Source: an uncultured Bacteroidia bacterium
GTDB lineage: Bacteria; Bacteroidota; Bacteroidia; Bacteroidales; Prolixibacteraceae
Assembly: GCA_903897145.1 (NCBI GenBank)
Contig: CAIUAN010000068.1
Location: 1-38,280 of the forward strand
Direction: 5' to 3'
Length of the DNA: 38,280 nucleotides
In this document: positions 1,361 through 31,428 of the stretch, one piece after another
Layout of the letters: each line of letters begins with the position of its first letter
Position numbering within the stretch: position 1 is the first letter of the stretch
The notes under the pieces: model-generated
Seen by the model: only the letters and a program-made list of their open reading frames with translations
What the model was told of the DNA's origin: nothing
Databases searched by the model: none
Made by a program: the position numbers and the translations under genes

Positions 1361-4300
1361 CTAATAATTGATATATACAAAACCTTGTATCTTCTTTATA
1401 GAATCACCAAGGTTTAGAATATAGTAATAAACACCCGGTGCGACGATCTGCTTTTTCGACCATCCTGAAGTTGTAAACCTTCCATCCCAATCATTCTGAT
1501 AGTCCTCGCTAGAGTAAACCAATTGACCAGATCGTGTGTAGACATATAATTGAGATTTTTGAAACTGTTCAATACCTGTAATCTCAAATTTATCGTTTAC
1601 GCCATCCCCATTAGGCGAGAATAATTGAGGCGCTTCGGGTAACGCCCTCAGGGTCACCTTTTGGGTGCAGGTATCCGTCAGTCCGCTGAAATCAGTGACT
1701 GTCCAAATTACCTCCGTAATACCAATCTTAAATTTAGCTGGTGCATCATTGATAACCGACCGAATGCCGCAATTATCCCAAACAATCGGCTGGCCAAGAT
1801 CAACAAGAATCGAATTATCACCACTTAAAAATGGTTTGTTACCCGAGGTAAGTGTAATAATTTGGTTGATATCCGTTGGGCATTTTATCGTTGGTGGCGT
1901 TGTATCAGTTACTGAAATTAGTACACTGTCTTTAAGTTCGCACCCTTTAGCACTGGTCATCGTAACCGTGTAATAGCCGGAGGCTAATTTTACCGCCTCA
2001 CGCGTTGTTTGAACTGGCGTTGTATTCCATTTATAGGTATACAGATTTACATCCGATGGTTTGCGATTTAGACTATCAACTCGATCTACTCTCGCACTTC
2101 CATTGAAGTCGTTAAGGCATTCAATATTTTTGTGCGCAAAAATAATCTTAACAGTTTGCGGATCTTTTAAAGTATCAGTTACAATTGTTGAGCATCCAGA
2201 CGCATCTGTTATAGTGACACTATACACTCCAGCAACTAGCTTGGTCGCTGTTGCACTATTCTGAACCGGAGTACTATCCCATTGGTAATTATATGGTGCC
2301 TTACCTTTCGTGATTATTGCAGTCATTGTTCCTGTGGCAGATCCAGGACAAGTTGGTGCGACCATCGTCAATCTTCCCATCAAGTTGTTCGAAGGTGCGA
2401 CGAAAACGGGCGTAATTGCTGAGCATGTGCCGCTTGTTAGAGACCCTTTAATAAAATAGGTCCCAGCCACAACAGATTGCGGATTCGTTAGCGGAATAGT
2501 AGCGGCGGCATCTTTCCAATAAGTATATAGCAACCCAGGTGTGGACCCAGCCGTTACTGAAGGGGCCGTAAGGTCGATCGTGCTAGTGCAATTAGGCAAT
2601 GCTTGCCCCACTGTTTTTACAACCGCAGTCGTAACTACTAAAACGGTAATTTGAGCAACTATGCAGCCTCCTGGAGCTACATAGGAGATTTGGAACGTTC
2701 CCGCTCCTGCCATTAAAGGATTGAACTTGTTCCCTGTAACACCTGATCCGACAAATGTTCCTCCGGCAGGATAAGCAGATAAGGTCACTGGCAAATCGCT
2801 TATGCAATAGGTTCCATAAATACCATTGAATCCAGAAGCCTCAACTGCGCTTACTGTTAGATTGTAGGTACTGCTATTTGAACAGCCATTTTTATCAACA
2901 ATCGTTAAGGTATATAAACCAGCAGAATTCCTGGAAACCGCAGCTATTTGTGGATTAAAAACCGCAGATGTAAATCCATTAGGCCCAGTCCATGAGTAAG
3001 AGGCCATTCCTATTGGTCCTTTAAGCGTTAAGGGGTATCTCTCACAGACAGGATTTGGCGTATCGGCAGTAATAGAGACTAAAGGAGTAGGCTGAACTGC
3101 AAGAACGATAGATTTGGGTATTGAATTGACACATCCATTTGCCAAAGAGGTTGGAGTAATAAGATATTCTACTGTTCCCGCAGTCGTATTACTTGGGTTA
3201 ATTAATGTTTGAGTTATTGCTGATCCTGCTCCTAATTTTGGTCCAGTTATCGCTCCAGTAATCGTGCCAATGGTCCAGGTGAAAGAACTAGGCATGCTCG
3301 ATGTAAGGGGTATGTTTGATTCCACGCCGTTGCAGACTGATATTGTTGCAAGATTTGTTACCAAAGGTGCTGGGTTTACGGTAACTGTAATTATGAATGG
3401 TATTCCCGTACACCCTCCATTGTTTGCTATTGGGGTAATGATGTAATCGACCGTTCCCGCGATTGCGTTACTTGGATTCGTTAAAATCTGATTAATTGTA
3501 TTTCCTGATCCTGCACTAGCACCTGTTATTCCCCCTGTTGTCATTCCAATAGTCCATGTAAATGAACTTGGTACAGAAGCTGTGAGCGAAATATTTGGAC
3601 CTGATCCAGTGCAAGTTGATGCTGTCGCTACATTGGTAACAATCGGTTTTGGATTCACAGTTACCACGATGGTGTATGGTGTTCCGGCACATGTTCCAGT
3701 TGTTGCGATCGGTGTTACAATATATGCAACAGTCCCTGCAGTTGTAGCACTTGGATTTGTTAATATCTGATTTAGAATTGGACCAGCTCCATTGCTTGCT
3801 CCAGTTATGTTTCCAGTAATTGTTCCAACAGCCCAGGTGAATGAGCTTGGGGTACTTGCGGTAAGTGTTAGATTCGGACTTGACCCACTGCAAGTGCTTA
3901 TGTTGGGAGCATTGGTGACCGTTGTTGCAGGGTTTACTGTAACGGTAATTGTATAAGGAGAACCAGAACATGATCCAGCTATTGAGGTTGGGGTGACAAT
4001 ATATTCTACTGTACCTGCTCTTGTATTACTTGGATTAGTGAGGACTTGACCAATGGTTGAGCCCGATCCTATCGTCGCACCAGTTATTCCTCCCGTAATC
4101 GCGCCAACGGACCAAGTGAATGTGCTAGGAATACTTGCGGTCAGTAAAATATTGGTGCTCGTTCCACTGCATACCGCTGCTGTGCTTGCGGTTGTCACCG
4201 TTTGAGCTGGCCTAACAGAAATGGTGATTGTAAATGGAGTTCCGCTGCATGATCCTGCTGTTGACGTTGGAGTCACGATATAATCTACCGATCCTATAGC

Positions 4301-7300
4301 CGTATTGCTTGGGTTTATCAGTATCTGATTTAGTATTGGTCCCGACCCTGCACTCGCGCCAGATATTGCCCCCGTAATAGTTCCAATAGTCCAGGAGAAA
4401 CTGCTTGACTCTGATGCCGCTAAGGTAATATTAGGAGCTGATCCACTACAAATTAGTGCAGTATTGGAATTCGTTACTATGGGCGCTGGATTAACGGTAA
4501 CTACAATCTTAAAGGGGGTTCCAGTACAGGATCCAGTCAATGCGGTTGGTGTTACTATATATTCGACTGTTCCATAAACAGTAATGCTAGGATTTGTAAG
4601 CACTTGGTTGATCATTGCCCCAGAGCCATTGCTTGCACCCGTTATTCCTCCAGAAATTGCGCCAATCGTCCATGTAAAGCTGCTAGGTACAGTTGCTGAA
4701 AGTGGTAAATTAAATCCACTACCACTGCAGGCAATTGCAGCAGCAGAGTTTGTAACTAATGGTTTTGGATTAACCGTAACGACTATTGAGTATGGCAGAC
4801 CAGCACATCCATTTGCTGTTGATTTTGGTGTAACAACATACTCAACTGTTCCAGAGACTGCATTGCTCGGATTAATTAAGTTTTGATTAATAAGAGATCC
4901 TGATCCTCCTGCTGCTCCAGTTATGCCTCCAGTTATGGTGCCAACTGACCATGTAAAATTACTTGGCAAACTAGAGGTTAGGTTTATATTCGGACTGTCC
5001 CCACTACAAATAGTCGTTGATGGTGCATTTGTAACAACAATGGCCGGATTTACATTGATCGTTATGGAGTATGGAGCTCCTGCGCAGGTGCCATATATAG
5101 AAACTGGTGTGACTAAGTATTCTACTAACCCCGAAAGGGTCGAACTTGGATTTGTTAGTACTTGATTTAAGGTAGAACCTGACCCTAAGCTTGAACCACT
5201 TATTGCTCCCGTATTTGTATTTACAGTCCATGAATAGTTGCTTGGGATCAATGATGTCAGGGCTAAATTTGGTCCTGATCCACTGCATATTGTAGCAGTA
5301 TTAACTGTTGTGACTTCAGGAGTTGGATTTACTGTAACGGTAATGGTGTAGGGCGTTCCCCCACATGATCCCGTAGCAGAGGTTGGTGTGATGATATATT
5401 GTACGGTGCCAGTTGTTCTGCTATTGGGACTTGTCAAGACCTGATCGATTGAGGAGCCATTGCCACTGGTTGCTCCAGTTATTCCGCCTGTAATAGCCCC
5501 AATAGTCCAGGTAAAAGTACTCGGAATATTTGATGTTAAGGTAATATTGGGACTAGTTCCACTGCATGTTGATGCCGTAGAAACGTTCGTGACGATTGGT
5601 CTTGGGTTGACCGTTACTGTTATGGTATATGGCGCACCAATGCAGCCAGTGGCAATAGCCTTAGGCGTTACAATGTAGTTTACGGTCCCCGATAAAAGAC
5701 TGCTTGGATTTGTTAGTATTTGGTTAATGCTAGATCCAGACCCTCCAACAGCTCCAGCTATCCCTTGAGTGATTGCACCAACAGTCCAGGTAAAAGTGCT
5801 AGGAATGGATGAAGTTAATGAGATATTCGGACTTAAGCCAGTGCAAATGGCAAATTGGTTAGATGTTAATACTTTAGGTGCTGCCTCAACAGTTACTACG
5901 ATTGAATAAGGTGTTCCGGAGCAAGATCCATTTAAAGAAGTTGGAGTTACAAGATATTCTACTGAGCCTGCAGTCGTATTGCTTGGATTAGTTAAAATTT
6001 GATTAATAGTAGATCCACTTCCTGAGCTTGACCCCATTATACCTCCTACAATGGAATTAATTGTCCATGCGAAGCTGCTAGGAGCGGTAGCCAGTAAACT
6101 AATATTTGGGGCTGATCCGCTGCAAATATCAGCACTGTTTGAAGTGGTTACTGCAGGTTTTGGATTTACGGTTACCCTTATCGTAAATGGTAAGCCGACG
6201 CATGATCCTGTTACTGACCAAGGGGTTACAATGTAATCAACATAACCTGAAGATATATTGCTTGGATTCGTTAATATATCGGAAATGGTAGGACCAGATC
6301 CGGTATTAGCTCCCGTAATACCTCCTGATATGGCCCCTATCGTCCATGAAAAATCACTTGATGTCGATGCGTTTAAGAAAATATCTGCACTAGTTCCGCT
6401 GCATATCGTTGTGGTACTAGGGTTTAATACAATTGGTAAAGGTTCAACAATTATGGTAACTAGAAATGAAGCACAAGATAAATTGGGTGAAGTTGAAGTC
6501 GGAGTTACAACATAGGTAACAGTTCCTGCAGAAGAATGACTTGTATTGGTAAGTGTTTGATTGATTGTAGGACCCGATCCATCACTCGCTCCAGCTATTC
6601 CTCCTGTAGTTGACCCAACCGTCCAGGTGAATGTACTCGGAACTGATGCGGTAAGTGCAAGATCTGGCCCAGTACCACTGCATATCTCAACAATGTTAGC
6701 GGAGGTTAAAACTGGTCCTGGATTTACAAATACAGTAATTGTAAAAGGGGTTCCGGAGCATGATCCTTCAATAGATTGTGGGGTGACAATATAGGCAACC
6801 GAGCCAGATGAAAAAATATCTGGATTATAGAGCATCTGATTGATTAATCCTCCGGATCCTGCTCTAGCCCCTGTAATTCCTCCTGTTATTGTGCCAATGG
6901 TCCAACTGAAAGTACTAGGCACTGAAGCAGCTAGGTTGATATTTGGCCCAGTTCCATTACAGATTGTTGCAGCATTGCTTGTTGTTATTATGGGGGTTGG
7001 ATTTACATTAACTGTAATTGCAAATGGGTTTCCAGTGCATGATCCGTCAATAGCTGTCGGAGTTACAACATAAGTAACCGTGCCAACCGACCCTTTACTC
7101 GGATTGGTAAGTATTTGATTGATGATAGATCCAGATCCATTACTGGCGCCTGTGATTCCGCCTGTTGTGCTTGACACGATCCAGGTATAGTTGCTTGGAG
7201 CAGTAGCCGATAAGATGATATACGGACTTGATCCACTGCAAGCACTCACTGTTGGCGAATTTGTAATCGTGGGCGTAGGATTAACCGTTACTGTAATTGG

Positions 7301-8536
7301 ATAACTTGCCCCGACGCATGATCCTGCAGTTGATGTTGGTGCTACAAGGTATTCGATCGTTCCCCCAACTGGACTATTCGGATTTGTGAGCAATTGATCA
7401 ATTGTAGTGCCAGAACCAGAACTTCCGCCAGTTATTCCTCCCACTATCGTTCCTATAGACCAAATAAAGCTGCTTGAGATTGAAGCTGTCAGATTAATAG
7501 ATGGAGTATTGCCACTGCATATAGTAGCGATGTTATGCGTTGTAACAGCGGGAGTTGGAAGTACAGTAACTAAAATGTTAAAGGGTGCGCCAATGCAACT
7601 CCCTAATGTTGACGTGGGCGTAACAACATAGGTCACTGAACCAGAGGAGAGATTGCTCGGATTGGTAAGTATTTGAGCGATGGTTGCTCCAGAACCACTA
7701 CTCGCCCCTGTTATTCCGCCGGTTATGGCTCCTACTGTCCAGCTGAAATTACTGGTAACCGACGCTATAAGTTCCAGGCTGGTTGCCGACCCGCTGCAAA
7801 TAGTTGACGTGTTCGAAACTGTTACAACTGGAATTGGATCGACCGATACGGTAATTGTAAACGTTGATCCAGCGCAGAGTCCTGTGGTGGATGTTGGAGT
7901 CACCAAATAGGCAACAGTGCCAACGGACGTGTTGCTTGAATTTGTAAGGATGTCATTAATGACAGATCCGGAACCCGCATTTGCCCCCGAGATGTTGCCT
8001 GTTGTTGCTCCAACAATCCAAGAGAAAGTGCTCGCAGTAGAGGAGGTAAGACTAATGCCTGGGGAACTTCCACTGCATATCTCTGCCGTTGATGAATTAG
8101 TAACTGCTGGTTTTGGATTTACAGTTAGAGTTGCAGCCCCGCTCGGTGTTGAATTTTCTAAACAACGATATTGATAGCCATTTGATGATAATGGGACCAA
8201 GCTGATTGTTAATGTTGAAGAGATTGCTCCATTTAATGAAACCCAGCCCGATCCATTGTTCTGCTGCCATTGATAATTGGTAAATCCTGAAACGGAAAAT
8301 GTTGCAGTGCCACCTTCGCAAGTTATCACATTACTAGGGTCTGCAGGGGGAGGTGATAAAGGTGCGGTTGCCTCTAACACTAAAATCTCATGAGATGTTG
8401 CTAAGGCGTTACCTAAGCTAGCATCAGATGTGCTTGCTTTCAAGGAAAAGCTAACCACAAAAACGGCCATTGCTGCAATTAATTTGCAATAAAACAGATT
8501 TTTATGATATATTTTGTTGCCTTTCATATTCACCAT
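1361..8536 (-). CDS. Giant T9SS-secreted repeat protein with gliding-motility C-terminal sorting domain
   Basis: This surface or secreted protein has about 2390 residues. Counting from 8554, the order is: signal peptide at about 11-40, an Ig-like segment (~70-147), 18 tandem PKD-like repeats of ~93 residues (~149-1820), further Ig-like segments, two SprB-type repeats (~2057-2215, with GTMTAIITKGKAPYNYQW and GVYSVTITDASGC), a HYR-like domain starting TPPTIKCPTDI, and a CHU_C-type sorting domain beginning SPNGDGVNDKFEI and ending KIQGFVYINY. That C-terminus marks export by the type IX system (type B sorting). The codon at 8554 is TTG; ATG at 8536 or 8527 is more likely. The downstream neighbour is a PorP/SprF gene. 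An adhesin or gliding-track role is inferred; no catalytic domain is seen. Confidence 0.92.
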   Translation of the reverse strand: MVNMKGNKIYHKNLFYCKLIAAMAVFVVSFSLKASTSDASLGNALATSHEILVLEATAPLSPPPADPSNVITCEGGTATFSVSGFTNYQWQQNNGSGWVSLNGAISSTLTISLVPLSSNGYQYRCLENSTPSGAATLTVNPKPAVTNSSTAEICSGSSPGISLTSSTASTFSWIVGATTGNISGANAGSGSVINDILTNSSNTSVGTVAYLVTPTSTTGLCAGSTFTITVSVDPIPVVTVSNTSTICSGSATSLELIASVTSNFSWTVGAITGGITGASSGSGATIAQILTNPSNLSSGSVTYVVTPTSTLGSCIGAPFNILVTVLPTPAVTTHNIATICSGNTPSINLTASISSSFIWSIGTIVGGITGGSSGSGTTIDQLLTNPNSPVGGTIEYLVAPTSTAGSCVGASYPITVTVNPTPTITNSPTVSACSGSSPYIILSATAPSNYTWIVSSTTGGITGASNGSGSIINQILTNPSKGSVGTVTYVVTPTAIDGSCTGNPFAITVNVNPTPIITTSNAATICNGTGPNINLAASVPSTFSWTIGTITGGITGARAGSGGLINQMLYNPDIFSSGSVAYIVTPQSIEGSCSGTPFTITVFVNPGPVLTSANIVEICSGTGPDLALTASVPSTFTWTVGSTTGGIAGASDGSGPTINQTLTNTSHSSAGTVTYVVTPTSTSPNLSCASFLVTIIVEPLPIVLNPSTTTICSGTSADIFLNASTSSDFSWTIGAISGGITGANTGSGPTISDILTNPSNISSGYVDYIVTPWSVTGSCVGLPFTIRVTVNPKPAVTTSNSADICSGSAPNISLLATAPSSFAWTINSIVGGIMGSSSGSGSTINQILTNPSNTTAGSVEYLVTPTSLNGSCSGTPYSIVVTVEAAPKVLTSNQFAICTGLSPNISLTSSIPSTFTWTVGAITQGIAGAVGGSGSSINQILTNPSSLLSGTVNYIVTPKAIATGCIGAPYTITVTVNPRPIVTNVSTASTCSGTSPNITLTSNIPSTFTWTIGAITGGITGATSGNGSSIDQVLTSPNSRTTGTVQYIITPTSATGSCGGTPYTITVTVNPTPEVTTVNTATICSGSGPNLALTSLIPSNYSWTVNTNTGAISGSSLGSGSTLNQVLTNPSSTLSGLVEYLVTPVSIYGTCAGAPYSITINVNPAIVVTNAPSTTICSGDSPNINLTSSLPSNFTWSVGTITGGITGAAGGSGSLINQNLINPSNAVSGTVEYVVTPKSTANGCAGLPYSIVVTVNPKPLVTNSAAAIACSGSGFNLPLSATVPSSFTWTIGAISGGITGASNGSGAMINQVLTNPSITVYGTVEYIVTPTALTGSCTGTPFKIVVTVNPAPIVTNSNTALICSGSAPNITLAASESSSFSWTIGTITGAISGASAGSGPILNQILINPSNTAIGSVDYIVTPTSTAGSCSGTPFTITISVRPAQTVTTASTAAVCSGTSTNILLTASIPSTFTWSVGAITGGITGATIGSGSTIGQVLTNPSNTRAGTVEYIVTPTSIAGSCSGSPYTITVTVNPATTVTNAPNISTCSGSSPNLTLTASTPSSFTWAVGTITGNITGASNGAGPILNQILTNPSATTAGTVAYIVTPIATTGTCAGTPYTIVVTVNPKPIVTNVATASTCTGSGPNISLTASVPSSFTWTIGMTTGGITGASAGSGNTINQILTNPSNAIAGTVDYIITPIANNGGCTGIPFIITVTVNPAPLVTNLATISVCNGVESNIPLTSSMPSSFTWTIGTITGAITGPKLGAGSAITQTLINPSNTTAGTVEYLITPTSLANGCVNSIPKSIVLAVQPTPLVSITADTPNPVCERYPLTLKGPIGMASYSWTGPNGFTSAVFNPQIAAVSRNSAGLYTLTIVDKNGCSNSSTYNLTVSAVEASGFNGIYGTYCISDLPVTLSAYPAGGTFVGSGVTGNKFNPLMAGAGTFQISYVAPGGCIVAQITVLVVTTAVVKTVGQALPNCTSTIDLTAPSVTAGSTPGLLYTYWKDAAATIPLTNPQSVVAGTYFIKGSLTSGTCSAITPVFVAPSNNLMGRLTMVAPTCPGSATGTMTAIITKGKAPYNYQWDSTPVQNSATATKLVAGVYSVTITDASGCSTIVTDTLKDPQTVKIIFAHKNIECLNDFNGSARVDRVDSLNRKPSDVNLYTYKWNTTPVQTTREAVKLASGYYTVTMTSAKGCELKDSVLISVTDTTPPTIKCPTDINQIITLTSGNKPFLSGDNSILVDLGQPIVWDNCGIRSVINDAPAKFKIGITEVIWTVTDFSGLTDTCTQKVTLRALPEAPQLFSPNGDGVNDKFEITGIEQFQKSQLYVYTRSGQLVYSSEDYQNDWDGRFTTSGWSKKQIVAPGVYYYILNLGDSIKKIQGFVYINY
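3093..8110 (-). repeat. 18 tandem ~280-bp coding repeats
   Basis: Eighteen copies of a ~93-residue unit are recognisable by TxxTICSG..PNI.LT, then F.W.VG.ITGGITG...GSG..INQ.LTNPS, then GTV.Y.VTPTS..GSC.G.PFTITV.VNP. The copies vary at the DNA level, so they are old or diversifying rather than freshly amplified. Long open frames on the plus strand across this stretch repeat with the same period and are antisense shadows. Confidence 0.9.
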
Positions 8537-8721
8537 GTTCTGCTTTAATTGCAAGTTTACATTGTTTCAAATCTTAGAAAAACGCTAAGATTTTATTCAT
8601 TGCTTAGATGGAGCAATACAAATTAAAACTGCTTTTCTTGATCTAAGATTAACCTCAATTATTTCTTTCTCAAATACCCCTAAAGGCCTTGAAACATTTG
8701 AATAAACTACCTCAAGCAATA

Positions 8722-21874: not shown

Positions 21875-23413
21875 ATGGATCGTAAGTTTAATTTACCTAA
21901 GTGGTCTTGGCTCATCTTTTTTTCTGGATTATTGGCCTTCGCTATCTTATTGATAATTACAAATAAAGCTGTCACCCTGACTTCGTCAGACAACTATTGT
22001 CAGTCATGTCATATTCATCCCGATGCGGATGCCTCCTGGAAAAAGTCAACTCATTTTTATAATCCTAGTGGCGTAGTGGTCCATTGCGTCGACTGTCACT
22101 TACCGCCTAAGGAAGACAATCGATACCTTTTTGCTAAAGCTAAAGCCGGAATAAATGATATTTATGCATTCTATTTTAAAGATAAGAAATCGTTTGATTG
22201 GGAGTCTAAAAGGCTTTTAGAACATGCGGTGAAAATTGTTTACAATGAGTCGTGTGTGAAATGTCACCAGAATCTATTTACCAAAGGGTTGTCTACGGAA
22301 GGTGGTACCGCTCATTTGTATTATGAGAAAAATGCAGCTAAGCTAGATCTTCAATGTATCAACTGTCACTTAGATGTTGGTCATTATAATCCGAACTATA
22401 GACATGCAAAGATGACTGGGATGCCAACGCCGGCCGGCGGCTCTCAGAATCTATATCCTGCAGCGGCGAAGGTGACTAAATTTGAAAATTTCAAAGAGAT
22501 GATCCCCAATAGCCCTGTCTCTTTTAATATGGTTGCGGTGAAAGGTGGATCATTTAAGATGGGGAGTCCAGATAGTGAACCATTTCATAACTCGAACGAA
22601 AGTCCGGTGAGAACGGTTACGCTAGCTCCATTTTTTATGGGCGAGGTTGAAGTGACCTGGGATGAGTTTTGGACATTCTTTGGCTCTACGATGTCTGAAG
22701 GACGCGTGGATCCAAATCTTGTGATGGCCCGTAATGCGGGTTCTCCGGACGCGGTAACAGGTCCAACACCACCTTTTGGAATTCCTGATCAAGGTTGGGG
22801 AGGTGGCAAAAGACCTGCAATCACAATGACCCATTATTCTGCAACAATCTACTGTATGTGGCTCTCTAAAGTTACGGGTAAACACTATCGTCTGCCTACG
22901 GAAGCGGAGTGGGAATATGCTTGCCGCGCGGGTAGCGAAACACCTTATTTCTTTCAAGCCGATCCGAAAAGAGCCTCCTCAGAAGGTCTTCGCAGCAAGA
23001 TCTTTGGTGCCGACACCACAAATATTAATCGATATGTAGCTTATGCCCTTAATTCAATGGGGAAAACGCAAGAACCTACCTTTGTGAAACCAAATCCATT
23101 TGGATTGAAAAATATGATGGGTAATGTTTTGGAATATTGTTCCGACTTCTATGCCGCCGATGCTTATTCAAAAACTGGGACTACAGTTTCAAATCCTAAA
23201 GGACCTGAGTCAGGTGAGGAGCATGTGATAAGAGGAGGAAACTACACCTTCGATGCGAAGGATTTGCGCTCGGCTGCTCGAGGAACAACAAAAACCGTCG
23301 ATTGGCTTAAGACCGATCCACAACAGCCTAAAAGTATCTGGTGGTATTCGGATATTAAAGGTGTTGGCTTTCGGGTGGTCTGCGATCCTGATCAAAGTGT
23401 GATTGCGAAGTAA
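21875..23413 (+). CDS. Tetraheme NapC/NirT-like cytochrome c fused to a SUMF1/FGE-like domain
   Basis: The protein has 512 residues. A transmembrane anchor (~11-30) is followed by four c-type heme sites: CQSCH (42-46), CVDCH (71-75), CVKCH (127-131) and CINCH (161-165). Spacing and extra histidines resemble NapC/NirT/NrfH quinol-oxidising cytochromes. From ~212 a formylglycine-generating-enzyme fold begins (MVAVKGGSFKMGSPDSEP) with TGKHYRLPTEAEWEYACRAG, NMMGNVLEYCSDFY and a final GVGFRVVCD. The cysteine pair that gives true FGE its activity is absent (RGGNYTFDAKDLRSAARG), so sulfatase activation is unlikely and the domain may bind a partner or ligand. It lies 36 nt before the Tat-exported Gfo/Idh/MocA lipoprotein gene, probably in one operon. 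A role in passing electrons between menaquinone and that enzyme is my inference. Confidence 0.88.
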   Translation: MDRKFNLPKWSWLIFFSGLLAFAILLIITNKAVTLTSSDNYCQSCHIHPDADASWKKSTHFYNPSGVVVHCVDCHLPPKEDNRYLFAKAKAGINDIYAFYFKDKKSFDWESKRLLEHAVKIVYNESCVKCHQNLFTKGLSTEGGTAHLYYEKNAAKLDLQCINCHLDVGHYNPNYRHAKMTGMPTPAGGSQNLYPAAAKVTKFENFKEMIPNSPVSFNMVAVKGGSFKMGSPDSEPFHNSNESPVRTVTLAPFFMGEVEVTWDEFWTFFGSTMSEGRVDPNLVMARNAGSPDAVTGPTPPFGIPDQGWGGGKRPAITMTHYSATIYCMWLSKVTGKHYRLPTEAEWEYACRAGSETPYFFQADPKRASSEGLRSKIFGADTTNINRYVAYALNSMGKTQEPTFVKPNPFGLKNMMGNVLEYCSDFYAADAYSKTGTTVSNPKGPESGEEHVIRGGNYTFDAKDLRSAARGTTKTVDWLKTDPQQPKSIWWYSDIKGVGFRVVCDPDQSVIAK

Positions 23414-23449: not shown

Positions 23450-24826
23450 ATGACTAAAAAGAATTCATTGAACAGGAGAGCCTTCTTTACGACCTCTGCT
23501 GTTGTTGGCGCTGTTGGAGCCATTGGAGTTGGAGCGATTGTAGCTTCTTGTGGCCCTGGCAAAGAATCATTAGTCCCTGTTAAATCATTAGCGGGAGCTT
23601 ATATTCCTAATCTCGTTGATGTGGCTGCTGATGGTCGCCTACTAAAAGCGGGCGTTATTGGTTGCGGTGGTCGTGGATCAGGTGCCGTACAAAATTTCTT
23701 AGATGCAGTACCTACCAACGTTCAGATTGTTTGTCTTGGTGATTTATTTCAAGATCGGATCGATGATTGTCGCAATGGCCTTAAAAATAAATATAAAGTT
23801 GAGGTTCCTGATAATATGTGTTTTACAGGATTCGATAACTATAAAAAAGTATTAGCTTCTGGTGTTGATCTAGTGATTATTGCGACTCCTCCAGCTTTCC
23901 GTCCAATCCATTTTGAAGCAGCCGTAGAAGCTGGCAAGCACGTATTTATGGAAAAACCGCTATGTGTGGATCCTGCAGGTGCTCGCTCGATCTTTGCATC
24001 AGCTAAAAAAGCAGAGTCGCAAGGTTTATGCGTGGTAACTGGAACACAGCGTCGTCATCAACGTAGCTATGTTGAAAGTTTTAAACAGATTCAAAGTGGC
24101 CTTATCGGCGAGATCGTATCTGGAAACGTATACTGGAATCAATCGATGTTATGGTACCGCGAGCGTAAAAAAGAGTGGACCGACATGGAATTTATGGTTC
24201 GCGACTGGGTGAACTGGAAATGGCTTTCTGGCGATCATATCGTTGAGCAACATGTCCATAACTTAGATGTTTTCAACTGGTTTGTTGGTAAAAAACCAAT
24301 AAAAGCTGTTGGTTTTGGAGCAAAACAACGTAGACTCTCTGGTGATCAGTACGATATGTTTGACGTTGACTTCGAATATGAAGGTGGCGTGCATCTACAT
24401 AGTATGTGTCGTCAGATTGATGGTTGTGCTAACAATGTTTCAGAGCGTATCGTGGGGACCAAAGGAGTATGGGATAGCAATAAGATGGAGATCAAAGATC
24501 ACCAAGGTAACCTGCTTTGGAAATTTGATGCAGAAAAAGAAAAAGCAGATTTCAAACAGACCAATCCATACGTGTTAGAGCATGTTGATTTCGTAAATCA
24601 TATCCGTTCAAACACCCCAATTAATCAAGCTGAAGATACTGCAGTATCATGTCTTACAGCTATTATGGGTCGTGAATCAGCTTACAGCGGCGCCGTTGTT
24701 ACCTGGGATGAGATAACCAATTCAAGCTTATCAACATTGCCATCTACTTTAGAGATAGGTCCTGTGGATATGTCTAAAATGGTATTGCCAATTCCTGGAA
24801 AAGGTAAAGAACCGAAAAAAGCATAA
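23450..24826 (+). CDS. Tat-exported Gfo/Idh/MocA family oxidoreductase, putative lipoprotein
   Basis: This 458-residue enzyme begins with a twin-arginine signal (NRRAFF at 8-13) leading to a lipobox-like IVASC (C34). The folded, cofactor-loaded protein is therefore probably exported and lipid-anchored. The Rossmann motif is AGVIGCGGRGSGA; EKPLCVDP and HIVEQHVHNLDVFNW follow, as in family dehydrogenases and GH109 glycosidases, which use tightly bound NAD(P). The substrate is probably a sugar or glycoside. The gene sits 36 nt behind the tetraheme fusion and is followed by a strong terminator, defining a two-gene unit. A cofactor trapped outside the cytosol needs re-oxidation, which fits an electron-transfer partner next door. 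Confidence 0.92.
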   Translation: MTKKNSLNRRAFFTTSAVVGAVGAIGVGAIVASCGPGKESLVPVKSLAGAYIPNLVDVAADGRLLKAGVIGCGGRGSGAVQNFLDAVPTNVQIVCLGDLFQDRIDDCRNGLKNKYKVEVPDNMCFTGFDNYKKVLASGVDLVIIATPPAFRPIHFEAAVEAGKHVFMEKPLCVDPAGARSIFASAKKAESQGLCVVTGTQRRHQRSYVESFKQIQSGLIGEIVSGNVYWNQSMLWYRERKKEWTDMEFMVRDWVNWKWLSGDHIVEQHVHNLDVFNWFVGKKPIKAVGFGAKQRRLSGDQYDMFDVDFEYEGGVHLHSMCRQIDGCANNVSERIVGTKGVWDSNKMEIKDHQGNLLWKFDAEKEKADFKQTNPYVLEHVDFVNHIRSNTPINQAEDTAVSCLTAIMGRESAYSGAVVTWDEITNSSLSTLPSTLEIGPVDMSKMVLPIPGKGKEPKKA

Positions 24827-24909: not shown

Positions 24910-25413
24910 TCAATTGACCTCAAAATGGACTGGATCATGGTAGTTCTTATAGGTTCCACCCCACAATAGTCCGTATCGCTTAGAGATCTCTGGAACACCT
25001 GATTCAATCCAAGCCGACTTTGAGCTAAACTTGCGCAACTCAATAAGGTTAAAGCCTACTCTTTTGTAAAGAAAGATATCTATTGCGCGACCAAGCACAT
25101 GGCGACTCTTATTCACTGCCGCATTCTTGGGATTGTCTCTTTTTAATTGGATCTGTGCCTCTTTGCTCCGGCGCCCACTAACAATCTCAACTTTCCAATC
25201 TGTCTCTCGCTCCACATCAGCAATGAAATTGCTTAAGGTCTGTCCGACTTGCTCGTTGGCTTCGGCAATATTGCTTAATTCAAAATGATTGATAATCCGG
25301 ACCCTAAGATCGTAAACAATGGTAAAACAGACATAGCCGACAGCTATTGCCATGACAAATAATAGTATTCTCATTCCATTATTAGGCTTCGTTTTTACAC
25401 TGCTTCTGCTCAT
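24910..25413 (-). CDS. M15-type (D-Ala-D-Ala carboxypeptidase fold) membrane-anchored peptidase
   Basis: The protein has ~167 residues with one N-terminal hydrophobic anchor (RILLFVMAIAVGYVCFTIVY) and a C-terminal domain containing VSGRRSKEAQ, SRHVLGRAIDIF (His and Asp zinc ligands) and DPVHFEV (third ligand). This is the zinc-site layout of M15 peptidases and VanY-like or endolysin-like peptidoglycan hydrolases. It probably trims cell-wall peptides in the periplasm. A longer frame to 25437 starts with TTG; ATG 25413 is preferred, and ATG 25374 would start right at the anchor. It stands alone on the minus strand between two plus-strand sugar-redox units. Confidence 0.8.
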   Translation of the reverse strand: MSRSSVKTKPNNGMRILLFVMAIAVGYVCFTIVYDLRVRIINHFELSNIAEANEQVGQTLSNFIADVERETDWKVEIVSGRRSKEAQIQLKRDNPKNAAVNKSRHVLGRAIDIFLYKRVGFNLIELRKFSSKSAWIESGVPEISKRYGLLWGGTYKNYHDPVHFEVN

Positions 25414-25591
25414 CCGAACTTCATTTTCGCTTGACAACCTTCTTATTTTTGTCGAGAATGGAGATTTTAAATCTCTCCTTTCAGACCATCAATGTGCGAA
25501 AATAATATCTTTCCCTAAACTTCTAATGTCGTCGAACTTAAAAATCATTTTTTAATTGAATTTTAACCCCATTTCGAGTCTTAATTGAAAT

Positions 25592-25648: not shown

Positions 25649-26809
25649 ATGAATAGAAAATTACGAATGGGAATGGTAGGCGGAGGAAATGATGCCTTTA
25701 TTGGTGCCATTCATCGACTTGCAGCTTTTATGGACAACCAGATCGAACTAGTCTGTGGTTGCTTCAGTGTCAATCCTGAGGTGTCGAAAGCCTCTGGAAA
25801 ATCCTATTACCTTCCAGATAATCGTGTTTATAGCTCTTACAAAGAGATGTTTGAGAATGAGGTGAAGCTGCCTCTAGGTGAGCGGATGGATTTCGTGACT
25901 ATTGTAACCCCTAACTTCGCCCATTTTGAGCCAGCTATGATGGCGATTGCGCATGGTTTTAATGTGGTAATCGACAAGCCAATCACCTTGACACTTGATG
26001 AAGCATTGCAGTTAAAAGCTGCTCTTGAGAAGACTGATTTGACTCTTGCTTTAACACATACCTACTCCGCATATCCTGCAGTAAAAGAGGCACGCGAACG
26101 AATTCGTCGGAATGATTTTGGAAAAATCCGTAAGGTTTATGTGGAGTATCCACAAGGATGGCTCTCTACAAAACTGGAAGATTCTGGCAACCCACAAGCT
26201 TCTTGGCGTACCGATCCAAAACGCTCTGGTAAAGCCGGTTGCATGGGCGATATTGGTACGCATGCGCATCATTTGGCAGAATATGTTACCGGACTAAAAA
26301 CGGTGGAGATTTGTGCGGAACTTAACATTTTTGTTCCTGGACGTTTACTCGATGATGATGGTGCTGCCTTGTTGCGTTTCGACAATGGTGCGAAGGGTGT
26401 TCTAACCGCTACACAGATTGCAGCAGGTGAAGAAAATACGATCAAATTACGAATCTATGGCGATAAAGGCGGATTAGAATGGAACCAGCATGAACCGAAT
26501 ACCCTTTTGGTTAAATGGAGCGATCGGCCTGCAGAGGTTGTGCGCGTGGGATCTGGCTATATGAGCGACATTGCGAAGAGTAATACCCGCACACCAGGAG
26601 GCCATCCTGAAGGTTACCTCGAAGCTTTTGCGAATATCTACCGTAATTTCTCGTTCACCGTAAGAGCGAAGATGAATGGCGAGCAACCAAAAGCTGAATG
26701 GCTTGACTTCCCAGGTGTGGAAGATGGTATCCGTGGAATGCAATTTATCGATACTATTGTGGAAGCTGGATACAACGACCAACAGAAATGGGTCAAATTT
26801 GCCGAGTAA
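25649..26809 (+). CDS. Cytosolic Gfo/Idh/MocA family oxidoreductase
   Basis: This 386-residue NAD(P)-dependent dehydrogenase has no export signal. The nucleotide-binding motif [15 protein letters not shown] opens the Rossmann domain; [12 protein letters not shown] (a variant of EKP) and [14 protein letters not shown] carry the candidate catalytic Lys and His residues. The family oxidises sugar or cyclitol hydroxyls. The next gene, 18 nt away, encodes a xylose-isomerase-like TIM barrel, a pairing seen in inositol and 3-keto-glycoside pathways. The two likely act in sequence on one substrate, which I cannot name. Confidence 0.92.
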
Positions 26810-26827: not shown

Positions 26828-27823
26828 ATGAAAAGAGCAGTTACACTTTTTACCGGACAATGGGCCGACTTAACCCTTGAGAGCGTTGCACAAAAAGCAA
26901 AATCTTTTGGATACGACGGACTCGAGCTTGCTTGCTGGGGCGATCATATCGAAGTTGATAAGGCCGATCAAGCCTATTGCGATGCTAAATTAGCCTTGCT
27001 TAAGAAATACGATTTAAAATTATTCTCTATCTCAACCCATCTTGTTGGACAAGCGGTTTGTGATAATATTGATGCTCGTCATCAAAGTATCCTTCCACCT
27101 GAAATCTTTGGCGATGGAGAGCCAGAGGGTGTTCGTCAGCGTGCTGCTGCTAGTGTTATTGAGACAGGCAGAGTAGCGAAACGATTAGGTCTTAAGGTGG
27201 TAAATGGATTTACTGGAAGTCCGATCTGGCAATATCTCTATTCGTTTCCACCTGTTTCGCAAGAGACGTTGGATGCTGGGTATGCTGATTTTGCGAAGCG
27301 TTGGATTCCAATCTTAGATGCTTATCAGGAGATGGGTATTAAGTTTGCCTTAGAGGTTCATCCAACGGAGATCGCTTTCGATATTGAGACAGCTAAGAGA
27401 GCCCTTAAAGCGGTAAACAATCATCCTGCCTTTGGATTTAACTTCGACCCGAGTCATTTTGGCTATCAGGGGGTCGACTATGTGCAGTTTATCTATGAGT
27501 TTAGCGATCGTATTTTCCATGTTCACATGAAAGATGCCACGTGGAATGAGCATCCTGGATCAGTCGGTGTTTTTGGTGGTCATGTGGAGTTTGGCGACAA
27601 CCGTCGATTCTGGAATTTCCGCAGTGTTGGTCGTGGAAGGATCAATTTCGAACGGATCATCCGAGCTTTAAATGATATTTCATACACCGGACCATTATCA
27701 GTTGAATGGGAAGATAGTGGCATGGATCGTGAGATGGGAGCTGCCGAGTCATGTGCTTTTGTGAAGAAGGTGGATATTTCTCCGAGCTCGCTCGCTTTTG
27801 ATGCGGCATTTAGCAAGGAATAA
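26828..27823 (+). CDS. Sugar phosphate isomerase/epimerase family TIM-barrel protein
   Basis: This 331-residue protein belongs to the AP-endonuclease-2/xylose-isomerase-like family. Candidate metal ligands are Glu in FALEVHP, Asp/His in [10 protein letters not shown], His in FHVHMKDA and Glu in LSVEWEDSG, in the order expected for the divalent-metal site. Family members isomerise, epimerise, dehydrate or cleave sugars, including some recently described lyases acting on 3-keto-glycosides. It is co-transcribed with the preceding dehydrogenase. The exact reaction cannot be told from sequence. Confidence 0.9.
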
Positions 27824-28562: not shown

Positions 28563-29687
28563 TTATTGCATTGATTTCATGCATTTTTTCCAATAATTAA
28601 AAAAGGAAGGGTAATAGCCTTCGACGGATGGGAACATCCAATCGCGCTGGTCTTTAATACCCGGATAGTAGGCAAATGCTGGATGTTCTTTAGAAATGAT
28701 TCCCTCATTTATCAAAATCTCGTTTTCGTTATAAAGGGTCAAGATCTCTGATATTTCTCCTGCAAAAACTTGGATGCCTGGGATATTTTTCGAAAGCTCA
28801 AGCACAAATTGCACCACCTTTTCACTTACAGGATTTGCAGTAAAATGAGATGGCTCTAATAGTAATACCCGGTTGACATTTTCATGTGCACGCCAGGCTG
28901 GATCAAGATTGTATGAGTTGTATAAGAGTGTAGGTTTAGATAAATCTAGGGAAGGAATTTTCGTATCTGGCAAATTAGATTGTAATTTTAGCGAAGTCTT
29001 AACTGCTAAAATATCAGGTACTTGCATGGCCGCTACTTGTTCATAAGAGTGATCTAGAAAAGTATCTGTTTGATGTGTATTCGTGTATTTATTGATATTT
29101 TCTTGATTGCAATAATATTTTTTTGAGGAAAATGACCCAGCAACCCATTGCCAACTGCAATTATTACTTGCGATGTCTCCATCTAATAAATTATAATAAA
29201 GCCATTTAGCAGGTATTTTCCAGTGTGCTTTCCCGATATTACAAGCAATTGAGGCTAAATACATTCTAATGTGGTTGTGCAGATATCCTGATTCATATAG
29301 TTGATTTATTTGTTCATCAATTACATGGATCCCAGTTTTACAATGGAGCAGACAATCCAACATTTTATGATGCTCAACATCTGGTTGGACTTGCTTTAAA
29401 TCATCCCAAATATGGTCATTTTGAACTTGCCAAATGCGTTGATAATATTCACGCCAAGCAAGTTCTTGTATTAGTTTCTCACTTTGGAATAAACTAAATC
29501 CGTTCTTCAAAACCATCTCCACTATCTGCTTTGTCGATATTACACCTCTTGAGATATAAGGCGATAAATAGGTAATATCACCATTTAAGAAATTTCTTGT
29601 TTTTGAATATTTCTCAGGATGAATTGCAATTATTTTAGCAATAATTGAGTCGTAATCGGTCGGAAACAAATGGTTATGCTTTTGCAT
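28563..29687 (-). CDS. Photolyase-like protein with apparent domain permutation
   Basis: In this 374-residue protein the FAD-binding photolyase domain comes first (~1-205): YLSPYISRGVIS, LAWREYYQRIW, YLHNHIRMYLASI and LDGDIASNNCSWQW. No N-terminal antenna domain precedes it. Instead, from ~247 to the end an alpha/beta segment appears with VNRVLLLEPSHFTANPVSEK and IPGIQVFAGEI, which resembles the first domain of photolyases (compare VYLLEEWHFFNQYPFHKEK in the neighbouring gene). It could repair UV lesions or act as a light sensor. The start overlaps the end of the upstream photolyase-family gene by 14 nt, so the two are co-translated. Confidence 0.82.
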   Translation of the reverse strand: MQKHNHLFPTDYDSIIAKIIAIHPEKYSKTRNFLNGDITYLSPYISRGVISTKQIVEMVLKNGFSLFQSEKLIQELAWREYYQRIWQVQNDHIWDDLKQVQPDVEHHKMLDCLLHCKTGIHVIDEQINQLYESGYLHNHIRMYLASIACNIGKAHWKIPAKWLYYNLLDGDIASNNCSWQWVAGSFSSKKYYCNQENINKYTNTHQTDTFLDHSYEQVAAMQVPDILAVKTSLKLQSNLPDTKIPSLDLSKPTLLYNSYNLDPAWRAHENVNRVLLLEPSHFTANPVSEKVVQFVLELSKNIPGIQVFAGEISEILTLYNENEILINEGIISKEHPAFAYYPGIKDQRDWMFPSVEGYYPSFFNYWKKCMKSMQ

Positions 29688-31164
29688 CTAATTCATTTAA
29701 AAATTTACTTGCATTGTATAAATGAGATTCCTGTTTGTCCGGATTCATTTTATCAAAAATGTGCACTAGCATCCCAATTCTTGGATTCCCCAAGAAAAAA
29801 GTTCTATGTTCATGCATGAAGCGCCAAAATAAACCATCCCAAATTTGCTGCCATTCCCCTTTTTCATAATCACTCATCTTCATTAAATAATTGCTGCCAC
29901 TTATGTAAGGTTTGGTTGTCATTAATCCGCCATCTGCAAACAGAATCATTCCATAAACGTTTGGTACCATCACCCAGTCGTAAGCATCTATAAACATTTC
30001 CATGAACCACTTGTAGACCTCATCGGGATCAAACTCGCATAAAAGCATAAAATTCCCCAACACCATCAGCCTTTCAATATGATGACAATATCCTGTGGCT
30101 AAAACCTTTTTTATGGTAAGATCAATAGGTGCAATACCGGTATTGCCTTTCCAAAAGCTTACAGGGATTTTTCTTGTAAACTTCCAGTAATTAGTAGTCC
30201 TTTGTTTAGAACCTTCTCGGTCATATACAATTCGAATAAATTCTCGCCATCCCATTATTTGTCTAATAAAGCCTTCTAAAGAATTTAATGGGATATTGTT
30301 TTTATTTGAAAAGTCTATTGCTCGTTCTATAATTTGTTTCGGAGTAATTAAACCGATATTAAGCATGGGAGAGAGAAGAGAATGATGCAAAACAGATTCA
30401 TTCGCAGCAATCGCATCTTCATATATCCCGAATTTTTCAAACCGGTATTTCAGAAATTCTTCAAGCCAGGTTTCAGTATCAACAAAATTAATGGCAAATA
30501 AATGATCCTTATTTATGGATCCATAATTATTCGGATAAGTATTCTGAACATAAATTTCAGCTTCACTTATATAGCTGTTTAATGGGGCTGATGGAGCCTT
30601 GGGCACAACTTCATTTTTAGGAAATTTAGATCTGTTATCTGCATCAAAAGTCCACTTTTCACCCAATGGCTTCCCCTCTTTTTCAAGTAAGATATTTCTT
30701 GATTTTCTTTGCCAGATGTAAAAATCCGTTTGGAAATAAGTTTTCTTTTTTGAAAAAAAAGGATCTACCTCATTTAAGTTATTTAAAAAATTAGGACTAT
30801 CATAAATGATTAATTCAATGCCAAATAGAGTACAGCTGGTTTTTATTTTCCGCAGCAACCAGTTATCAACTGGGTCTGCAATATGTATAACATGTACATG
30901 ATTAGCATGCAGTTTTTCGATAAGTAACTCGCCGCGGTTTTGAAACTCCATTGATTCAATATAATGAACCATAACCCCCTGATCTTTTAAAAACTGTTCA
31001 TAAAATTTCATGCTCGCCCTGTGCAAGACAAGTTTCTCTTTATGAAATGGGTATTGATTAAAAAAATGCCATTCTTCCAGCAAGTAGACAGGTCTATTCG
31101 TATTAATAGCAGGATGCTCCTTGAATAGCTGATTGGGGAATATTATCGAAACTTGAGTTGACAT
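29674..31164 (-). CDS. Prokaryotic 6-4 photolyase/cryptochrome-type (DPRP, FeS-BCP family) protein
   Basis: With ATG 31164 the protein has ~496 residues; ATG 31173 is a close alternative. A frame back to 31278 adds an unrelated leader and is rejected. The N-terminal domain (VSIIFPNQLF, VYLLEEWHFF) and the C-terminal FAD part (GYCHHIERLMVLGNFMLL, VPNVYGMILFADGGLMTTKPYISGSNYL) match the PhrB/CryB family. In PhrB-type enzymes cysteines around the following SDY region bind a [4Fe-4S] cluster; here that part reads MSDYEKGEWQQIWDGLFW with no cysteine, so the cluster is probably absent. It is the first gene of the photolyase pair. A DNA-repair or light-sensing role is inferred. Confidence 0.87.
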   Translation of the reverse strand: MSTQVSIIFPNQLFKEHPAINTNRPVYLLEEWHFFNQYPFHKEKLVLHRASMKFYEQFLKDQGVMVHYIESMEFQNRGELLIEKLHANHVHVIHIADPVDNWLLRKIKTSCTLFGIELIIYDSPNFLNNLNEVDPFFSKKKTYFQTDFYIWQRKSRNILLEKEGKPLGEKWTFDADNRSKFPKNEVVPKAPSAPLNSYISEAEIYVQNTYPNNYGSINKDHLFAINFVDTETWLEEFLKYRFEKFGIYEDAIAANESVLHHSLLSPMLNIGLITPKQIIERAIDFSNKNNIPLNSLEGFIRQIMGWREFIRIVYDREGSKQRTTNYWKFTRKIPVSFWKGNTGIAPIDLTIKKVLATGYCHHIERLMVLGNFMLLCEFDPDEVYKWFMEMFIDAYDWVMVPNVYGMILFADGGLMTTKPYISGSNYLMKMSDYEKGEWQQIWDGLFWRFMHEHRTFFLGNPRIGMLVHIFDKMNPDKQESHLYNASKFLNELDAKA

Positions 31165-31173
31165 GATGAGCAT

Positions 31174-31428
31174 TTTTGTCTTACTACCTAACAACTTCAG
31201 CTTTATAATGTTCTGAATAAAATAGTTTGACCCCAGCCTAGTTCTTACGAATAACGGGTTAGCAGAGTTAAATTCCAAGAGCTATTTATCTATTTTAAGA
31301 GGTCTATTTAATTGATTCCTTATGCAATACAACGAATAAAAAGCCATTAGAAATCCATATCTTCAGAGGGGCTTCCAACAACGCTCGAAGGCCTCGCCTT
31401 AGAGAATCATATGAAAAGATATAATTTC
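31174..31428. other. Divergent intergenic region, no gene seen
   Basis: This stretch lies between the photolyase pair and the XRE-cupin regulator. I find no clear -7 box for the minus-strand genes and no convincing reading frame. Confidence 0.35.

Follow-up and report, generated by a model that had tools for sequence, protein, structure and literature searches.

The window, the whole stretch of 38,280 nucleotides that we analysed, encodes a protein in which a membrane anchor and a tetrahaem cytochrome are joined to a domain with the fold of formylglycine-generating enzymes (FGEs; SUMF1-like). Directly after it comes the gene for an exported dehydrogenase, here called GFO1. These features and the related ones downstream are as follows (+, forward strand).

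21875..23413 (+): fusion protein of 512 amino acids, consisting of anchor, NrfH-type tetrahaem cytochrome and FGE/SUMF1-like domain; single frame, ATG to TAA
21905..21982 (+): N-terminal membrane helix, residues 11-36 (helix in the predicted model; hydrophobic sequence)
21998..22018 (+): haem 1 site CQSCH plus His48 (CxxCHxH), with His in place of the Met of the NrfH motif CxxCHxM
22085..22099 (+): haem 2 site CVDCH
22136..22159 (+): Lys88...Asp95, with the same 7-residue spacing as in FKAIAGARD of the solved NrfH 2j7a
22253..22267 (+): haem 3 site CVKCH
22313..22315 (+): His147, conserved in all the fusions and a weak candidate as an additional haem ligand
22355..22369 (+): haem 4 site CINCH
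22526..23296 (+): FGE/SUMF1-like domain, residues 218-474, lacking the active cysteine pair (PF03781)
23303..23344 (+): clade signature W477...DPQxPxSxWW, residues 477-490 (alignment of 120 relatives)
23450..24826 (+): GFO1, exported Gfo/Idh/MocA dehydrogenase of 458 amino acids, in the same frame as the fusion and 36 nt past it (PF01408/PF22725/PF02894)
23474..23551 (+): twin-arginine motif RRAFF and lipobox VASC of GFO1 (motif scan)
25649..26809 (+): GFO2, another Gfo/Idh/MocA protein, without a visible signal peptide and a candidate for a 3-keto-sugar reductase of the cytoplasm (PDB relatives 3v5n and 3dty)
26828..27823 (+): TIM-barrel relative of 2-hydroxy-3-keto-glucal hydratase, 331 amino acids (8ro4, E 4e-46, residues 8-326)

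On the opposite strand lie a small M15-type peptidase gene, between GFO1 and the GFO2-hydratase pair (24910-25437), two genes of the photolyase family side by side, of which one is of DPRP type (28563-31278), and a gene for a protein of 2397 amino acids that combines 18 PKD-like stretches with HYR and a type IX secretion signal of CHU_C type (1361-8554).

Pfam assigned residues 13-174 of the fusion to NapC/NirT (PF03264; E 6.8e-27, 94.7 bits against a cut-off of 24.1) and residues 218-474 to FGE-sulfatase (PF03781; E 8.2e-40, 137.5 bits, above the curated cut-off). The CxxCH sites start at residues 42, 71, 127 and 161, and together with the N-terminal anchor they place the protein in the NapC/NirT family. 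A preliminary description of this DNA had proposed exactly such a joining of four CxxCH sites and a NapC/NirT/NrfH-type anchor to an FGE fold; the Pfam domains, the motif positions and the helix in the predicted model confirm it. Chance or misassembly is excluded as the source of the fusion, as the architecture was found in 23 open reading frames (ORFs), two of them from the window's own genome, and no two of the proteins are identical.

How widespread is the fusion? Searching genome contigs, we found it in 13 of the best 80 among at least 585 relatives, and a sample of the order yielded it in 8 of 59 other genomes. Of 296 genomes sampled from the phylum, including the window's own, 223 matched somewhere, many weakly and through the FGE-like part, and among the matches listed, best first, the only full-length ones were the window's own. 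The hosts are all Bacteroidota by title or kinship, except for one metagenome-assembled genome labelled KSB1, and in the tree the NapC fusions form one clade (support 100/99). The window's own genome carries a second copy, a 54% identical paralogue with its own GFO1 (contig C55, L116:1-4031), and this pair is followed by a third, Tat-type Gfo/Idh gene. The flanks of that locus, with a DNA polymerase I-like ORF upstream, are unlike those of the window, so the module is kept in different surroundings. No publication on the pairing with GFO1 or on the tetrahaem fusion was found in the open-licence PMC literature.

The cytochrome part could be placed more narrowly than the NapC/NirT/NrfH type given in the preliminary description: it is closest to NrfH, though altered. 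Its free-standing relatives in the phylum are NrfH proteins, and all 29 that were fetched adjoin a CxxCH-rich ORF of NrfA type. A joint profile of the fusions and these NrfH proteins had NrfH of D. vulgaris (2j7a) as its best solved match (E 4.3e-25); a single-sequence search of the PDB with the haem part of the window's protein alone matched no chain at E 0.001. All four haem sites are invariant in the 23 fusions. At haem 1, however, CxxCHxH is found in 23/23 fusions and CxxCHxM in 29/29 NrfH proteins, and the fusion scores 83.1 bits with the NCBIfam NrfH model TIGR03153, below the cut-off of 134.2. Lys88 is present in 22 and Asp95 in all 23 of the fusions, and the 29 Bacteroidota NrfH proteins all have His at the place of Asp95. 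In a review (PMC8840924), NrfH proteins are described as quinol dehydrogenases in which the quinol-side haem has the Met of CXXCHXM as ligand and an Asp on the distal side, and in which the NrfA-facing haem takes a Lys ligand donated by NrfA. The fusion keeps the Lys88/Asp95 spacing; quinol oxidation is a putative activity. His147, present in 23/23 fusions and in the same column of 2/29 NrfH proteins, could supply the haem ligand that NrfA gives in NrfHA, a weak proposal because 28/29 NrfH proteins have some His in that stretch.

An NrfA partner is missing from the locus, where GFO1 takes its place, and NrfA (PF02335) had no match in the window's own genome, which is 97% complete. Nitrite reduction is therefore disfavoured. 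A pre-fusion state, with a separate NrfH-like gene beside the FGE-like gene, was not among the 29 free NrfH-like genes fetched. The genome also encodes, on contig C36 (L169:559-2055, reverse strand), a 498-amino-acid multihaem protein that matches part of the NapC domain (E 1.7e-11) and whose gene adjoins a small ORF with one CxxCH.

Does the FGE-like domain retain an active site? In profile searches its best solved relative was PvdO (5hha, E 1.9e-38), with FGEs at about 1e-33; PorK/GldK and Treponema variable protein 1 were also among the relatives of the fold. Family models nevertheless scored below their cut-offs, with 93.3 bits against 500 for PvdO (NF051459) and 85.5 bits against 350 for GldK. 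Phe459 aligns with a Cys of a solved FGE, and this column holds Asp in 70 and Ser in 23 of 120 relatives, the rest having nine other residues. None of the 120 has Cys there, and only two have two Cys anywhere in residues 455-470, which confirms the absence of the FGE cysteine pair noted in the preliminary description. Across the domain, no His or Cys is invariant in the alignment of the 120, and an FGE- or EgtB-like metal site was rejected on this ground. What is kept instead is a Trp-rich motif, W...DPQxPxSxWW, in which Asp481, Pro482, Pro485 and Ser487 are present in 118/120 relatives. SUMF below denotes the FGE/SUMF1-like domain or protein of the clade with this signature. Because catalysis appears lost while the motif is strictly conserved, the alignment suggests a binding role, and the SUMF protein of the pair is probably non-catalytic. 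Among the relatives of the fold, PorK/GldK and Treponema variable protein 1 have structural or binding roles.

In the fetched loci, which come from Bacteroidota, Planctomycetota and Verrucomicrobiota, SUMF is mostly unfused, exported and beside GFO1; most free-standing members start with an apparent signal peptide, as judged by eye. We quantified this pairing within 1.5 kb of 139 ORFs with the domain, 115 with and 24 without the signature pattern. GFO1 was downstream of 90 of the 115 and upstream of three (two on the other strand); four had no room for it and 18 had none. Of these 18, four had flanks of about 1.4 kb, and in at least two (L045 and L053) a GFO1 ORF overlaps the SUMF ORF through over-long calls. 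Among the 24 ORFs without the signature (one of them listed twice) GFO1 was near none. The sets had been selected for their similarity to the window, so the contrast is one of clade membership. By type, downstream GFO1 accompanies 22/23 NapC fusions, on the same strand in every case, 3/12 ORFs with other CxxCH arrangements and 65/80 haem-free ORFs; the remaining fusion (L018) ends with its contig, 378 nt further on. Loci L084 and L104 in the set are identical. The protein distances of SUMF and GFO1 go together, with r 0.70 across 83 loci and 0.48 within classes, as shared ancestry alone would also bring about.

We hold with high confidence that SUMF and GFO1 are functionally paired, a solid result, and consider it likely that they share a complex. 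The fusion thus recurs with a dehydrogenase gene, not with unrelated neighbours, and the link to dehydrogenases that the preliminary description had presumed for the homologues is borne out. Since 65 of the 80 haem-free signature ORFs already have GFO1 downstream, the cytochrome was apparently added to a SUMF-GFO1 pair already in existence, and the pairing with the dehydrogenase seems to predate the tetrahaem fusion and to be more widespread. The earlier idea of the fold as a docking or substrate-binding module on an electron-transfer protein is partly supported: docking fits the findings, and the fusion is probably not what gave rise to it. The FGE-like protein and the exported Gfo/Idh dehydrogenase make up a widespread pair, of which the tetrahaem fusion is the version with haems and a membrane anchor.

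Individual loci vary around this pattern. A signature-bearing member in Akkermansia muciniphila (L033:9761-10963) has no GFO1 in the 1375 nt downstream. In a Limisphaerales protein of 723 amino acids (L031:4684-6855) a part with a weak FG-GAP match takes the place of the cytochrome, and GFO1 is still downstream. In Niabella hibiscisoli (L080:10991-12246) GFO1 appears to be split over two adjacent ORFs.

GFO1 itself has the Rossmann and C-terminal domains of the Gfo/Idh/MocA family together with its GxGGRG and EKP motifs. Across 90 partners, an RR-type twin-arginine motif was found in 88, EKP (or QKP) in 89 and a GxGGRG-type motif in 80, and in the 83 long sequences Glu168, Lys169, Pro170, His270 and Asp273 are invariant. 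By script, 21/22 partners of NapC fusions have a lipobox (by eye, the one at L017 as well) versus 2/68 of the others, and both of the latter are spurious, one being a Rossmann-motif Cys (L059) and the other lying in a fragment without its N-terminus (L080). Where its partner is membrane-anchored, GFO1 thus appears to be so too, judging by the lipobox. This match counts as one evolutionary event and not as independent evidence, because each of the two proteins forms a single clade.

Cytochromes of another kind occur in the same SUMF clade. Twelve members from PVC-type bacteria (Verrucomicrobiota and Planctomycetota) have CxxCH in their N-terminal part; Pfam found PSCyt1 in 5/5 of those tested, doubled in four. 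GFO1 is downstream in three of the twelve and upstream in one. In the tree these PSCyt members fall outside the NapC-fusion clade and need at least three changes. They support a link of SUMF with cytochromes, short of proof because PSCyt1 joins many proteins in Verrucomicrobiota and Planctomycetota and because GFO1 is near in only 4/12. Outside the PSCyt members, 80 of 103 signature ORFs have no haem motif. Their 80 neighbourhoods (819 ORFs) contained seven other ORFs with at least two CxxCH, in six loci, within 7 kb. The cytochrome is therefore not essential to the pair, and a shared cytochrome gene for the haem-free pairs was rejected. Near five haem-free SUMF loci, however, large PSCyt-like proteins of a single cluster recur (L026:3935-6835, L052:6221-8488, L065:9398-11719, L079:15540-17852 and L040:5902-7860); they have one CxxCH or two (two in 4/5) and could be a carrier.

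Because the fusion and GFO1 share a frame, we modelled them as one chain by reading the intervening stop as Gly. The window pair gave a pTM of 0.59, with pLDDT >90 over the greater part of the FGE-like and Gfo domains and poor modelling of the haem domain; a free-standing Pedobacter pair (L060) gave 0.78 over 777 residues. By a rough estimate, free placement of the domains would give a pTM of about 0.6 for L060 and about 0.5 for the window, all comparisons being of matched pairs. On this calculation the L060 model would point to a preferred arrangement and the window model is ambiguous, so that the co-fold, which the preliminary description had proposed as a check, is no more than suggestive of docking.

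Downstream of GFO1, the 26828 protein is a full-length homologue of the 2-hydroxy-3-keto-glucal hydratase 8ro4, which we take to be the hydratase of Agrobacterium oxidative glycoside cleavage; its best PDB match is 2zds (E 1.2e-118), named a putative DNA-binding protein. Hydratase relatives lie directly upstream of SUMF-GFO1 in nine loci, which belong to a single Rhodothermales-type lineage and include two identical ones, and GFO2 relatives also lie upstream in Rhodothermales-type loci. At least one of six sugar-pathway neighbours is in the flanks of 36/80 loci; these are raw counts, uncorrected for background (3-keto-disaccharide hydrolase 8, ThuA 5, Tat TIM barrel 18, hydratase 4, GFO2 6, other Gfo 10). 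The usual flavin C3 dehydrogenase, like GlycDH of Agrobacterium, belongs to the GMC family. Because the 97% complete genome of the window has no match to a GMC flavoprotein, GFO1 could fill the place of this apparently missing enzyme. Oxidation of glycosides at C3 is plausible, in our estimate a little short of an even chance, and is no more than a proposal, because GFO1 lies far below the family model of the glycoside 3-dehydrogenase BT_2158 (NF058561; 31.5 bits against a cut-off of 750).

The reading that we favour, with confidence and doubt about equally weighted, is a membrane-held, respiration-linked periplasmic sugar dehydrogenase in which the FGE fold docks GFO1 to the haems. Proteins exported by Tat cross the membrane already folded, and GFO1 would leave by this route with its NAD in place and be kept at the membrane as a lipoprotein. 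There it would oxidise a sugar, with C3 of a glycoside as the most likely position, and its NAD, unable to leave, would have to be re-oxidised on the spot. The FGE-like domain would hold GFO1 against the tetrahaem domain, and this would pass electrons either to the menaquinone pool, in the reverse of the NrfH direction, or to a cytochrome in the periplasm. Enzymes such as the 26828 hydratase relative and the 25649 Gfo/Idh protein would then handle the 3-keto product. The window's own genome has one match each to TatC and cytochrome c assembly and four to COX1 (one partial). That electrons travel from the sugar via the haems to the quinone pool or to a cytochrome of the periplasm is plausible, and we would put the chances near the midpoint. 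This account lacks its central chemical step, from hydride to haem, because we found neither a flavin nor anything else that could convert a two-electron into a one-electron transfer.

A different division of labour, unlikely in our view and the first to be weighed against this, would have GFO1 work redox-neutrally on a fixed NAD, with the FGE-like domain as a scaffold or sugar-binding part and the cytochrome mainly as an anchor or in the service of another partner. Foldseek matches of the predicted model include glucose-fructose and aldose-aldose oxidoreductases. Those of Zymomonas and Caulobacter, respectively, are exported and recycle NAD(P) with a second sugar, and related exported Gfo/Idh enzymes run without an outside acceptor. 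The 65 haem-free ORFs with GFO1 downstream and the structural or binding roles of the fold relatives PorK/GldK and Treponema variable protein 1 fit this picture as well. However, four haem sites kept in all 23 fusions go beyond the needs of an anchor, and cytochrome domains were added in the PVC lineages too.

Electrons could also flow the opposite way, from menaquinol through the NrfH-like and FGE-like domains to GFO1, which would then reduce a periplasmic keto-sugar. The kinship with quinol dehydrogenases and the Lys88/Asp95 spacing shared with the solved NrfH speak for this direction, but menaquinol is a poor donor for NAD by redox potential, the COX1 matches provide an oxidising sink, and the presence of a hydratase-type gene close by suggests consumption of keto-sugars. 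We judge this reversal to be quite improbable. We give still less credence to a PvdO-like SUMF domain that is itself the redox enzyme, oxidising the product or substrate of GFO1 and delivering electrons to the haems. PvdO is indeed the best PDB profile match, and NCBIfam names its family dihydropyoverdine dehydrogenase, yet the shortfall against the PvdO model, the 11 different residues in the FGE-cysteine column and the lack of an invariant His or Cys make such chemistry very unlikely. Least probable of all is maturation of GFO1 by SUMF (installing or checking its cofactor, or modifying a residue) in a step powered or sensed by the haem domain: FGEs are maturation enzymes and the pairing is close, but the FGE target motif CxPxR occurs in 1/83 GFO1 partners, the cysteine pair is gone, and Tat substrates leave the cytoplasm already folded.

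If the respiratory reading is extended to the whole clade, the retired FGE fold would serve as an adaptor that passes electrons between a dehydrogenase whose NAD is trapped and haems of the c type. At least two lineages would have joined different cytochromes to this adaptor, and the haem-free pairs would use loose carriers. We regard this generalisation as doubtful. Were it true, it would be a new extracytoplasmic link between respiration and a Gfo/Idh/MocA enzyme of NAD type. To our knowledge, how periplasmic Gfo/Idh/MocA enzymes with fixed NAD are recycled is mostly unknown, and a dedicated partner in several phyla, with different cytochromes in different lineages, makes the question testable. 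An answer would reveal what the many proteins whose scores mark them as formylglycine-generating enzymes really do, and would tie oxidative sugar cleavage to respiration. Taken together, these data suggest that sugars are oxidised outside the inner membrane, with the electrons reaching respiration by an undescribed route.

The locus can be set beside several known systems. With NrfH, the tetrahaem quinol dehydrogenase of the NrfHA nitrite reductase (2j7a), the fusion has in common the anchor, four CxxCH sites and the Lys...Asp spacing; it differs in the His that replaces the haem-1 Met, in the attached FGE-like domain and in a genome without an NrfA match. PvdO (5hha) and FGEs share the FGE fold, but the domain described here lacks the active cysteine pair, carries W...DPQxPxSxWW and is tied to a Gfo/Idh gene. 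GldK/PorK of the type IX secretion system are likewise FGE folds in Bacteroidota, from which SUMF is set apart by a score below the GldK cut-off and by a dehydrogenase as its recurring neighbour. The GlycDH-OGE-hydratase-Gfo operon of Agrobacterium and the BT_2158 family have in common with the window a hydratase relative and a second Gfo/Idh gene, and some relatives' loci also have 3-keto-disaccharide hydrolase and TIM-barrel neighbours. In Agrobacterium, according to PMC10628242, a flavoenzyme oxidises C3, the hydratase takes 2-hydroxy-3-keto-glucal and a Gfo protein reduces 3-keto-glucose; the first step there thus belongs to a flavoenzyme, whereas the window's genome is without a GMC match. 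Finally, GFO1 has the Gfo/Idh/MocA fold of the exported Zymomonas glucose-fructose and Caulobacter aldose-aldose oxidoreductases and, like an exported protein, a Tat-type RR motif; those two recycle their NAD(P) with a second sugar, whereas GFO1 is encoded at a locus that provides a cytochrome partner.
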